DNA of 64,000 bases from Synergistaceae bacterium (GTDB lineage Bacteria; Synergistota; Synergistia; Synergistales; Aminobacteriaceae). Under the pieces are notes generated by a model that was given only the letters and a program-made list of their open reading frames with translations, was not told the origin of the DNA and did no database searches. The stretch is taken from positions 47,843 to 111,842 of the forward strand of contig JAISLU010000071.1 of assembly GCA_031277095.1 (NCBI GenBank). The letters are read 5' to 3'. Position numbers and translations under genes: made by a program. Within the stretch, counting starts at the first letter, position 1; each line of letters opens with the position of its first letter. This document shows, in pieces, positions 27,408 through 33,307 of this stretch.

Positions 27408-29564
27408 ATGTCGTATCCGAGCGCGTATCCGAATAAAACCGTGGCCCCGAGAGATAAGAACGGCTTCGAGTCCTTTTTGGCCCTGACCGCCCATGCGGAC
27501 CGGGAGTTTCTCTCATTGAACGCCCTGCATCGGTTTTTGCCGGTCTGCTGCGGCATGGCCAACGGCGCCGGCGGATGGGTGATTTTGGGCGCGTTTCAGG
27601 AAGGCGACACTTTCCTTGAAGACCGGCCCGAGGCGGCAGTGATGCAGGTGAAAGTGGAAGGTGTGCCGGATACTGCCCAGCTGGAGCGGGAACTGAGACT
27701 TTCTCTGGAGGACAGGGGACAGATCTCCGCGAACCCGGTGTCCTCTTTTCGCTCCCTTTCCATTGGTGACAAGAACGGCGACAAGAACGTACTGGTCGCC
27801 CGTGTGGAGGCGGCAGATTGGTTTTTGCGCCCTCTCTGCGTGGGCGCGGATTATTTGCGGGGCGCCTATCGCCGCATCGGAGGGGCGGACGTGGCCTCGG
27901 GCCATCACGCCCGTCTGCGCATGGCCCTGGACGCCCTGGAGATCACCCGAGACGACCTCCCCGTCCAGAACCTCGGCGTCTCGGACCTGGACGCCGGGAG
28001 CGTGGCTTCTTTCCGGGCCGCGGTGACGGAGCGTTTTCCCCAGTGGAAAGAGCTTTCTCAGGAGGAATTTTTGAGGCGCGCCCTGGTGCTGACGCCTCTG
28101 GACCCTTTACAAGCCTCGGAGGAGATAACCGTGACCCGCGCCGGGGAGCTTCTCTTGGGGAAAGGAGAGGTCAGGGTCCGGCTGACCCGACGGGACGAGT
28201 CCCAGGGGACCAAGGTCTGGGAGGCCCAAAATCTTTGGTCGGCTTGGACGGACCTTTTTTTACCGCGGCTGGCGAAAGGCGCACCCTGCGAGGACGCTTT
28301 GCGGGAGTGTTTCATGAACGCGCTGCTCCACGCCGAACACGACGAAGGGTGCGTCGAGATCGAGCTGCGGGACGCGACGGTGACTTTCCTCAACCCCGGC
28401 CTGCCTCGCGTTCAGATCGACGGGCCGCGCCCCGACGGAACGAGTTCCGAGGGGGTTTGCCCCGCGCGCAACGGCCGCCTGCTGCGGATGTTTAAACTGG
28501 CGGGGCTCGCCCACGGGGAAGGACGCGGGCTCCCCATCATCCGGGCTTTCCACGAGAACTTCCACCTCCAGTTGAACACGCTGGAACTGTCCACTTTCGC
28601 GGAACTGCCCCTGCAAGAACCCGACATCCCCCCCGGAATGCCCATAGTGCAAGTGTCACAAGTGACACAAGCACCGCGTGCGGCGCAAGTGCCTCAAGTG
28701 ACACAAGTCCCGCGAGCGGTGCAGGAAGTGCCCGAAGCGACACAAGCCCCGTCGCCCCAAAAATCTCCGTCCCTTCTGGACCTCATGCCCCTGCTCTTGG
28801 CCCCCATCGAAAGAGCGATCCCCCCCGGCCTGATTCTGGCGGCGCTTCCCGTCACCCAACCGGCAACACTGGAGATCGCAGAACTGGAAGTTGCGGAGCT
28901 GGAAGTTTTAGAACCGGAAGCCCCAGAACCGGAAATTGCGGAGCCAGAAATTTTAGAGCCCGAAAGCCAGGAGCCCGAGGAGCCGGAACCCGAGAGTTTA
29001 GAACCCGAGGGCTTTGAGCCCGAGAGCTTTGAGCCCGATAGTTTTGAACCCGAGAGCCTGACTCCAGTCAATTCCGAACCCGAAAGCCTGGAGCCAGAAG
29101 TTCTGGAACCGGAAGTTCTGGAGGACGAGGAGCCGAATTTGGAGCCGGAAAATTTGGAGGAACCGGAGTTTTTCGACGCCGAGACCGGCGTCACAGAAGA
29201 AGAGAAAGAAGAGAAAGAAGAAGAAGAAGAAGAGGAAGAGACGGGCGAGGACGAAGAAGAGAACGAAGAGGACGAGTATGAGGCCCCCGAAGTCGATATA
29301 TCGGAGATATCGCCGGAATCGTCGGCTCAGGAGCAGGTCCTCAGAAGCGCCCGCACATCGCCGCCCGTGGTGCGCCAGGCCATCTTGGAGCTGTGCGGCG
29401 AATATAGAAGTCTCTCCGCCCTGTCGTCGATGCTGGCGCGCTCCGAGGGGTCCCTGCGGCGGCACTACATCACCGCCATGGTCCGGGAGGGGCTGTTGGA
29501 AATGGAGTTCCCCGACAGAGTCGGGCACCCGGACCAGAGGTACAGAACCCGGAACCTCAACTGA
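27408..29564 (+). CDS. AlbA_2/Schlafen-type DNA-binding ATPase-like protein with Glu-Pro-Glu repeat and C-terminal winged helix
   Basis: 718 residues. The N-terminal 170 resemble the AlbA_2 (Schlafen) domain of RecG-like regulators: CGMANGAGGWVILGAFQEG and YLRGAYRRIGGADV. Residues 270-400 resemble the GHKL-type ATPase of the same family (CFMNALLHAEHDEGCVEIEL, RNGRLLRMFKLAGLAHGEGRGLPII). A Gln/Val/Pro linker follows (about 415-450), then about 100 residues of EPExx pentads (about 487-588) and an almost pure Glu/Asp stretch (about 597-624). A C-terminal winged helix ends it (about 648-718; LSALSSMLARSEGSLRRHYI). ATG 27408 follows GAGGGA. It overlaps the convergent tauE stop by 8 bp. Likely a DNA-binding regulator; targets unknown. 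Confidence 0.75.
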   Translation: MSYPSAYPNKTVAPRDKNGFESFLALTAHADREFLSLNALHRFLPVCCGMANGAGGWVILGAFQEGDTFLEDRPEAAVMQVKVEGVPDTAQLERELRLSLEDRGQISANPVSSFRSLSIGDKNGDKNVLVARVEAADWFLRPLCVGADYLRGAYRRIGGADVASGHHARLRMALDALEITRDDLPVQNLGVSDLDAGSVASFRAAVTERFPQWKELSQEEFLRRALVLTPLDPLQASEEITVTRAGELLLGKGEVRVRLTRRDESQGTKVWEAQNLWSAWTDLFLPRLAKGAPCEDALRECFMNALLHAEHDEGCVEIELRDATVTFLNPGLPRVQIDGPRPDGTSSEGVCPARNGRLLRMFKLAGLAHGEGRGLPIIRAFHENFHLQLNTLELSTFAELPLQEPDIPPGMPIVQVSQVTQAPRAAQVPQVTQVPRAVQEVPEATQAPSPQKSPSLLDLMPLLLAPIERAIPPGLILAALPVTQPATLEIAELEVAELEVLEPEAPEPEIAEPEILEPESQEPEEPEPESLEPEGFEPESFEPDSFEPESLTPVNSEPESLEPEVLEPEVLEDEEPNLEPENLEEPEFFDAETGVTEEEKEEKEEEEEEEETGEDEEENEEDEYEAPEVDISEISPESSAQEQVLRSARTSPPVVRQAILELCGEYRSLSALSSMLARSEGSLRRHYITAMVREGLLEMEFPDRVGHPDQRYRTRNLN
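28860..29170. repeat. Coding pentad repeat, period about 15 bp (Glu-Pro-Glu)
   Basis: About 20 imperfect 15-bp units encode EPExx pentads within the AlbA_2-type protein. Several neighbours are nearly identical, e.g. the GAGCCCGAGAGCTTT copies at about 29010-29045. Confidence 0.85.
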
Positions 29565-30345: not shown

Positions 30346-30378
30346 AGGCAACAACTCCTTAAATATTTACGTTGTTGT

Positions 30379-30384
30379 ATTATA
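30379..30384 (-). promoter_or_regulatory. Possible -10 box for the TauE/SafE gene
   Basis: TATAAT on the minus strand, 34 bp upstream of the chosen GTG start. No good -35 box was seen. Confidence 0.4.
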
Positions 30385-30409
30385 CTGCCTACGTGCGAGT
30401 CCGCAGTTC

Positions 30410-30510
30410 TACGAAAACACGTTCTACGAAATAGACGTTTTACGTAGTTTGCGGGTCGTTCGTTTAAATTTCGCTTATTCAAATTTCGCTCGTTTAAAAA
30501 TTCGGACAAA
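30410..30510. repeat. Degenerate short repeats upstream of the hemerythrin-CheX gene
   Basis: Near-copies of TTCTACGAAA/TTCTACGAAAT/TTTTACGTAG (about 30410-30450) are followed by TCGTTTAAATTTCGC/TTATTCAAATTTCGC/TCGTTTAAAAATTCG (about 30467-30505). No promoter could be assigned within them with confidence. Confidence 0.55.
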
Positions 30511-30527: not shown

Positions 30528-31376
30528 ATGTGGAAAGAATCATACCGTCTGGGTGTGGAAACGATAGACAACCAGCATCGGCAGCTTTTCAAAATGGTGG
30601 ATGACCTGCTCGAAGTGGTCAACGGCGGCGAAGGGGAGGACTACAAGCAGAAGTGCGCCGACGCCGTGACTTTTCTGTACGATTACACGGTGAAACATTT
30701 TCAGTTCGAGGAAGGGTATCAGGCGTCTATCGGATATCCGGACATCGAGGCCCACAAACTCCAGCATAAGCGGTTCATCGTCACGGTCGATAATTTCGCG
30801 AGGAGAATGACCGACTCGCAGTACGACATGCCGGTGGTGAAGGCATTCTGCGGGTCGCTGGTGGCGTGGCTGAACTACCACGTCGCCGATACCGACCAGA
30901 AAATCGTGGGCAAAAACCTCTCGAAGGAACACGATTCCCTGCTAACCTGCCTGGGCAGTTTCTCCTCCGGCGCTCTGGGCGTCGCATCCACCATGCTGGG
31001 TCTCAGCGCGGACGAGATCACAAAAACAATGTCCCCCAGCAGGCATTTCAAAGGCGACATCGCCTATGAAATAGGGCTTGTCGGGGACATCGCCGGCAAG
31101 GCGCTCTTCGAGTATTCCATCGACTTTGCGTATTCCATGGTCAGGGCGCTCATCTCGAAGGACATGGAGGACGTGGACGAAATCGCCCGCTCCGCTATGG
31201 CGGAAACGTCGAACATCATCGGCGGGAAAGCCGCCATGACCATGTCCGCCAGCGGGAAGCTGTGCGACATCACCACCCCCCTCCTGGTCCCCGTCCGCCG
31301 TGAAACGTGGACTTTCGAGGGCTTCCACCTCCACACCCCAAAAGGCGACATGCAAGTCCTGCTCTCGGTTGAATGA
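30528..31376 (+). CDS. Bacteriohemerythrin fused to a CheX-like phosphatase domain
   Basis: 282 residues. The N-terminal 135 form a bacteriohemerythrin: all seven di-iron ligands are at the expected places, His17, His57, Glu61, His76, His80, His118 and Asp123. The rest resembles the CheX/CheC phosphatase family, with the ExxN catalytic motif at Glu226 and Asn229 in AMAETSNIIGGKA. Known CheX proteins dephosphorylate CheY-P. A fusion therefore suggests that O2 or redox state gates dephosphorylation of a response regulator; that is inference. ATG 30528 follows GGCGGAGGGG. No other chemotaxis gene is adjacent, though a cheW lies at 52931. Confidence 0.85.
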   Translation: MWKESYRLGVETIDNQHRQLFKMVDDLLEVVNGGEGEDYKQKCADAVTFLYDYTVKHFQFEEGYQASIGYPDIEAHKLQHKRFIVTVDNFARRMTDSQYDMPVVKAFCGSLVAWLNYHVADTDQKIVGKNLSKEHDSLLTCLGSFSSGALGVASTMLGLSADEITKTMSPSRHFKGDIAYEIGLVGDIAGKALFEYSIDFAYSMVRALISKDMEDVDEIARSAMAETSNIIGGKAAMTMSASGKLCDITTPLLVPVRRETWTFEGFHLHTPKGDMQVLLSVE

Positions 31377-31469: not shown

Positions 31470-31508
31470 CGCAATATTGCAAAAAATATTGCAAAAAAAT
31501 ATTGCAAA
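31470..31508. repeat. AATATTGCAAA triple repeat
   Basis: Three near-copies of AATATTGCAAAAA lie in tandem just before the terminator that follows the hemerythrin-CheX gene. Confidence 0.8.
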
Positions 31509-31543
31509 GAAGGCCGCTTGTCGATCGAACGGCCTTCTTTGTC
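31506..31543. terminator. Bidirectional intrinsic terminator between hemerythrin-CheX and proC
   Basis: AAAGAAGGCCG (31506-31516) and CGGCCTTCTTT (31530-31540) form a perfect 11-bp stem with a 13-nt loop. The A and T runs allow use from both strands. Confidence 0.9.
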
Positions 31544-32503: not shown

Positions 32504-33307
32504 CTACTTGCGCGGTTCGAAACGGGAGAGTGAAGCTGCCAACAGGATGACCCAAATCAACCCTCCTGCCCCTGCGTCACAACCCCCGCCGCTTTTGGAA
32601 TTTTGAGGAGCGGGGCTGGGATTGGGTGCCGGGGGTGTCTTTTCGGTAACGACAAGAGTGAACGTCACGGAGCGATCCGCGGCCGCAGTGTGCCGCGCGC
32701 CCTGATAAACGGGAAGTTCCACCGAGATTGTGATGGTATAGCTCCCCGGCACGACGACAGCGCCGGATAAGTGCCCGTCCTCGGTCAAGACGAGATTCGC
32801 GGGCAAGGGAGTTGAAGTGAATCTCCCCCTCAGCGCCGAGGACAATTGAACGTCGATGAATTGTCCCGTTGTAATGCGCAGCACGCCGTTGCTGAGACCT
32901 ATGCCCTCGAGTCCGGACAAGTCGATGGGGACGGGAGGCTCAGCGTACACCTCGAAACTCAAGGTTGGTTCCGACAGTTTGGTGTCGGATTCGATCAAGG
33001 TGAAACCCAAAATATATGTTCCCGCCATCGGCGGCGTAAAGGTGAAAGTCAAGATACTCTCCGCCTTCTGCAGATCGACGGAATGGACGCTGCCGTCCGG
33101 GTAGGTGATCGACAGAACCGCATTTTCCACAGGCGCACTCATCTGTACAGAACAGGTGAGAGGCGAGCCGACGGATGCGAAGGGCGGCATGAGAAAGTTG
33201 ACCGTGACGTTTCCCGGCGGCAGCGCGGCAAAAGCCGTTCCCGAGAAAAAGAAGCAGCCTGATAGAACCCCTGCTAAAAACACCCGCAAATACTTTCGTT
33301 TACCCAT
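32504..33307 (-). CDS. Exported Ig-like protein with Synergist-CTERM signal
   Basis: 267 residues with a signal peptide (about 1-27, ending SGTAFA). Two Ig-like beta domains follow. The first (about 30-135) has VNFLMPPFASVGSPLTCSVQ and MAGTYILGFTLIE; the second (about 135-225) resembles the putative Ig domain seen in many surface proteins (LPANLVLTEDGHLSGAVVVPG). A Pro/Asn-rich linker, then KSGGGCDAGAGG, a hydrophobic helix and RFEPRK form the Synergist-CTERM signal. The ATG at 33307 overlaps the TAA of a small upstream reading frame (TAATG). Function unknown; probably surface-anchored. Confidence 0.85.
   Translation of the reverse strand: MGKRKYLRVFLAGVLSGCFFFSGTAFAALPPGNVTVNFLMPPFASVGSPLTCSVQMSAPVENAVLSITYPDGSVHSVDLQKAESILTFTFTPPMAGTYILGFTLIESDTKLSEPTLSFEVYAEPPVPIDLSGLEGIGLSNGVLRITTGQFIDVQLSSALRGRFTSTPLPANLVLTEDGHLSGAVVVPGSYTITISVELPVYQGARHTAAADRSVTFTLVVTEKTPPAPNPSPAPQNSKSGGGCDAGAGGLIWVILLAASLSRFEPRK

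Follow-up and report, generated by a model that had tools for sequence, protein, structure and literature searches.

A hemerythrin–CheX fusion gene of Synergistota with a predicted oxygen- or redox-sensing phosphatase product

The fusion gene and its surroundings

The window, a stretch of 64,000 nucleotides from a Synergistaceae genome, contains a gene at positions 30528..31376 (+) that encodes a hemerythrin fused to a CheX domain. The open reading frame is complete and its span agrees exactly with the original prediction: 282 codons, specifying a protein of 282 amino acids, start at an ATG that follows a GGAGG and run to a stop at 31376. The ribosome-binding site and the ATG are kept in relatives. 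A longer N-terminus was considered and rejected, as there are only 10 codons upstream and none of them is a start codon; an extension is possible in the frames of some relatives. The protein consists of a bacteriohemerythrin domain (residues 1–128, 30528..30911, +), an inter-domain segment (residues 129–139, 30912..30944, +), and a CheX domain (residues 134–282, 30927..31373, +), the start of which is approximate and falls within the inter-domain segment. The ExxN motif of the CheX domain, ETSN, is encoded at 31203..31214 (+; residues 226–229).

The probability that the gene is an artefact of annotation or assembly, or a pseudogene, with two genes read as one, is negligible. The same single frame occurs in 17 assemblies, the MWKE start is aligned in all ten of the fusion genes that were first compared, and both halves are under purifying selection. 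The independent homologues in 17 genomes rule this reading out, and the gene is confirmed as real, not a product of chance.

The fusion gene lies outside the chemotaxis and flagellar clusters of the genome, near a transporter-like gene, an adenine deaminase, proC, and polA. No neighbour that could be an operon partner is conserved across the fusion loci of the relatives. A 13-bp hairpin, not assigned to a strand, is located at 31504..31542, where the fusion gene and proC converge. The hairpin is very stable (−23.7 kcal/mol, z −5.8), has no clear T run, and is absent from the output of the terminator scan, which reports only short-looped hairpins that have a T run. It is likely a terminator common to both genes, or a processing site. 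Upstream of the fusion gene, positions 30366–30500 are AT-rich and contain short direct repeats, two of GTTCTACGAAA and two similar to TCGTTCGTTTAAA, 15 and 30 nt apart, which are possible regulatory sites or due to chance. Two further frames of the window have no NCBIfam match. The one at 27408–29564 has a length of 718 amino acids and contains a long Glu-Pro-rich repeat run (EPESLEPEGFEPE...) and poly-Glu stretches. The other, at 32504–33307 (−), encodes a secreted-looking protein, the C-terminus of which, SGGGCDAGAGGLIWVILLAASLSRFEPRK, resembles by eye a Synergist-CTERM sorting signal.

The two domains and their junction

The N-terminal half matches three hemerythrin profiles above their curated cut-offs: Pfam PF01814 (Hemerythrin) over residues 9–127 with 55 bits (cut-off 25.3, E 1.5e-14), NCBIfam TIGR02481 (hemerythrin domain) with 102.7 bits (cut-off 51.75, E 1e-29), and NCBIfam NF033749 (bacteriohemerythrin) with 95.4 bits (cut-off 84). 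Its phmmer match among solved structures is the hemerythrin domain of DcrH, DcrH-Hr (PDB: 2awc, 2.8e-11). The canonical ligand pattern of hemerythrins is H-HxxxE-HxxxH-HxxxxD (Kitanishi, PMC9388753), and the seven di-iron ligands of the fusion, His17, His57, Glu61, His76, His80, His118, and Asp123, fit it as H17, H57xxxE61, H76xxxH80, and H118xxxxD123. The whole-domain match and the set of five histidines, one glutamate, and one aspartate place this half in the (bacterio)hemerythrin family. Hemerythrin-domain-containing sensors combine conserved iron ligands with a fused functional domain, the output of which is controlled by O2 or redox state (Kitanishi 2022, PMC9388753); the sequence of the fusion has the ligands and the fused domain, and such control is predicted for it.

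The original prediction had named a profile search of the second domain as one check and the lack of any CheX or CheC match as grounds for rejection. The search returned Pfam CheX (PF13690) for residues 182–254 with 35.8 bits (curated cut-off 27, E 8.5e-9) and CheC (PF04509) for residues 219–251 with 23.5 bits (cut-off 22), which removes those grounds. Among solved structures, phmmer matched the second half to CheX of Thermotoga (PDB: 1squ) with 2.5e-8, or 8.8e-9 when the second half was used alone, and a profile that also contained stand-alone CheX gave 1.4e-16 for the same structure. Further matches are to CheX structures from Desulfovibrio (PDB: 3hm4, 3h4y) and Borrelia (PDB: 3hzh). The match to 3hzh begins at residue 134, and the CheX domain therefore appears to be complete and to start a few residues past the end of the hemerythrin domain. 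The ETSN segment, Glu226 to Asn229, aligns with the ExxN motif of T. maritima CheX and with that of stand-alone CheX. The CheX half is about 24% identical to the CheX that the genome of the window encodes separately. Profile match, structure-family match, and motif together assign the second half to the CheX family. Its score against the Thermotogales CheX equivalog NF041094 is 52.3 bits (cut-off 280), which makes it homologous to that narrower group while lying outside it and has no bearing on its membership of the CheX family.

The residues expected to carry out both functions are conserved. In the alignment of 16 fusion genes, 15 of which extend to the ExxN motif, the seven ligands are invariant in 16 of 16 sequences, and the glutamate and asparagine of the motif in 15 of 15. 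This invariance argues that both functions have been kept. The identities of both domains and the intact ligands and phosphatase motif are as had been proposed. On average, pairs of sequences are 82% identical in the hemerythrin half and 65% in the CheX core, and the median dN/dS ratios of about 0.08 and 0.19, respectively, which are rough because dS is near saturation, are far below 1 and indicate purifying selection on both halves. In the protein tree, the three full-length genes from the family of the window are grouped (99/99), and the root and most deep forks are open.

The junction, residues 129–139, has a mean pairwise identity of 45% and contains no insertions or deletions in 16 sequences, including a copy that is only 44% identical. 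Such a constant length would fit a mechanical coupling in which the last helix of the hemerythrin connects to the first helix of CheX. The AlphaFold2 model calculated from eight sequences is poor (pLDDT 48.8), and the geometry of the domain interface is unreadable at this confidence. The same low-confidence model has helices at residues 101–126 and 131–157, in agreement with the order of hemerythrin followed by CheX, and CheX and DcrH-Hr rank top among its Foldseek matches (3hm4, 4.6e-4).

Distribution and genomic setting

The fusion gene was found in 17 of 188 Synergistota genomes, which belong to seven of 63 genera and two families. The close copies are 65–77% identical, and the copy in genome G124, which runs into a contig end, is 44% identical. 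The gene is absent from both genomes of the same genus that were examined (86% and 92% complete), which suggests that it is dispensable. A scan for close relatives in 84,980 species genomes identified seven loci, all labelled Synergistaceae and overlapping with the set of 17 genomes, and gave no match outside Synergistota. Within this scope, the description of the architecture as uncommon holds, and the fusion is clade-restricted within the phylum searched. The accessions of the seven loci (JAISDQ to JAITNX) fall within the range JAIRJQ–JAITXW, deposited as termite-gut metagenome-assembled genomes (PMC11257099), which identifies them as such by accession range.

A tblastn search of plasmids matched the hemerythrin half, and none of the matches covered over 80% of the query. 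Viral contigs, searched to deepen the alignment, gave four hemerythrin matches and no CheX; these frames (L105–L108) lie close to the ends of four IMG/VR contigs and may be host flanks or phage-borne hemerythrins. A second hit in genome G004 (L089), which clusters with the fusion, was rejected, as its sequence shows a lone hemerythrin domain preceded by a spurious frame.

The genome of the window encodes a chemotaxis set of one CheA, ten MCP signalling domains, CheB, CheC, and CheD, with several of the chemotaxis and flagellar gene names assigned by reading of the sequences. One cluster holds FlhA, FlhF, CheB, CheA, CheC, and CheD, and a second CheC is located further along the same contig. 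The flagellar switch proteins FliM and a FliN-type protein are present, and a CheY-like receiver adjoins both; the CheY of this genome lies at L111:4533-4943. A stand-alone CheX is encoded elsewhere. Since two CheCs and this CheX are already present, the fusion is predicted to add a further phosphatase of the CheX type that carries a sensor of its own. Apart from the fusion, the genome encodes a single hemerythrin, which is stand-alone, and thus no DcrH-type receptor was found there. CheA is present in 16 of 17 carriers and in 114 of 171 non-carriers (Fisher P 0.013, kinship ignored), and the carrier without it is G156, which is 80% complete. This association is suggestive only because the carriers are related.

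Proposed function and related systems

We propose, with a probability of about 60%, that the fusion protein is a soluble cytoplasmic phosphatase of response regulators that senses oxygen or redox state, with CheY-P as the likeliest target. The N-terminal hemerythrin would bind a di-iron centre and react with O2, passing from the deoxy to the met state, possibly through the oxy state. This reaction would alter the four-helix bundle, and the change could then travel from the final helix of the hemerythrin, across the short, length-invariant junction, into the first helix of CheX. Glu226 and Asn229 of the CheX half would enter the active site of the phosphorylated response regulator and position the water that removes the phosphoryl group. 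In phosphatases of the CheC/CheX/FliY type, the asparagine orients the water for attack, whereas a salt bridge links the acidic residue to the lysine of the regulator (PMC3035606). Hemerythrins fused to output modules serve as oxygen or redox sensors in DcrH, Bhr-DGC, and Bhr-HD-GYP, and such sensors are known to act on chemotaxis (DcrH) and on c-di-GMP (PMC9388753). These precedents, together with the ExxN mechanism, predict that the fusion most likely alters the dephosphorylation of a response regulator with oxygen or redox state, which is a reasonable expectation from the two families. We infer the binding of metal, the phosphatase activity, the coupling and its sign, and CheY as the target.

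If CheY-P is the target, oxygen or redox state would alter the flagellar bias directly, in parallel to the chemoreceptor/CheA array. A tentative extension, which we regard as somewhat doubtful, is a receptor-less oxygen taxis, in which the signal would enter at the dephosphorylation of CheY-P through the hemerythrin-gated CheX and by-pass the array; anaerobic gut Synergistota would in this way be adapted to steep gradients of oxygen. The gene is not located in a che cluster and has no conserved neighbour, so the gene neighbourhood does not tell whether CheY or a different response regulator is the target. The CheX half might act on a regulator other than CheY, for example one of c-di-GMP or transcription, and would then connect oxygen or redox state to gene expression or lifestyle and not to the motor. 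The orphan position of the gene, the canonical stand-alone CheX and two CheCs in the same genome, and the low identity to that CheX would suit such a role. However, characterised CheX proteins have CheY as their substrate, and nearly all carriers are CheA-positive, although shared descent confounds this weak association. We consider a non-CheY target unlikely, and CheY-P is the likeliest, but not the sole, candidate.

Alternatively, the hemerythrin half might be tethered to CheX as a buffer or scavenger of O2 or iron and leave the phosphatase without allosteric regulation. The role usually ascribed to single-domain hemerythrins is the storage or scavenging of O2, many hemerythrin matches in the same bacterial family lack a CheX half, and the junction sequence is poorly conserved. 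Nevertheless, the length of the junction is fixed, and the pairing of the domains persists down to 44% identity. Moreover, other fused hemerythrins are sensors (PMC9388753), and mere tethering appears quite improbable next to the sensing phosphatase proposed here.

Hemerythrin-coupled sensors are a known kind of protein, whereas a CheX-type output is undescribed as far as searched. A 2016 survey reported 56 architectures of long hemerythrins; MCP and GGDEF are among those named in its main text, which mentions neither CheX nor CheC (PMC4919030). Both are likewise missing from a 2022 review of the sensors (PMC9388753) and from a 2026 review of aerotaxis. No description of a hemerythrin–CheX fusion was found in the literature searched, in which the one paper naming both counts the genes separately; such proteins may be present in automatic domain databases. 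In the hemerythrin sensors characterised so far, the signal goes to receptors or to enzymes of c-di-GMP (PMC9388753). Coupling such a sensor to a CheX-type phosphatase would provide an environmental input at signal termination; receptor-independent aerotaxis could result, and anaerobic carriers may tie oxygen straight to the motor. Both halves are small and soluble and belong to well-understood families, and the idea is therefore testable in vitro with one protein of 282 amino acids and CheY.

The closest solved hemerythrin by sequence is that of DcrH from Desulfovibrio vulgaris, an MCP with a C-terminal hemerythrin. In both proteins, a seven-ligand hemerythrin is joined to a chemotaxis component. 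However, DcrH acts at the receptor, whereas the sensor of the fusion is placed on a response-regulator phosphatase with no apparent membrane segment. Bhr-DGC of Vibrio cholerae and Bhr-HD-GYP of Ferrovum likewise combine a hemerythrin sensor and an output enzyme in one chain, and an N-terminal hemerythrin with a C-terminal GGDEF is described as a frequent architecture (PMC4919030, PMC9388753). The output of these enzymes makes or breaks c-di-GMP, while that predicted for the fusion is hydrolysis of a phospho-receiver. A protein from the related Synergistota genome G023 (L031:85-1890) has the order histidine kinase ATPase, receiver, receiver, hemerythrin. It resembles the fusion in attaching a hemerythrin to phosphorelay parts within the same bacterial family, whereas its output is a kinase/receiver and its hemerythrin is C-terminal instead of N-terminal. 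The CheX proteins of T. maritima (PDB: 1squ/1xko) and Borrelia burgdorferi (PDB: 3hzh) align with the fusion in the ExxN motif and the DITxP segment, and, unlike the fusion, both are stand-alone proteins without a sensor domain.
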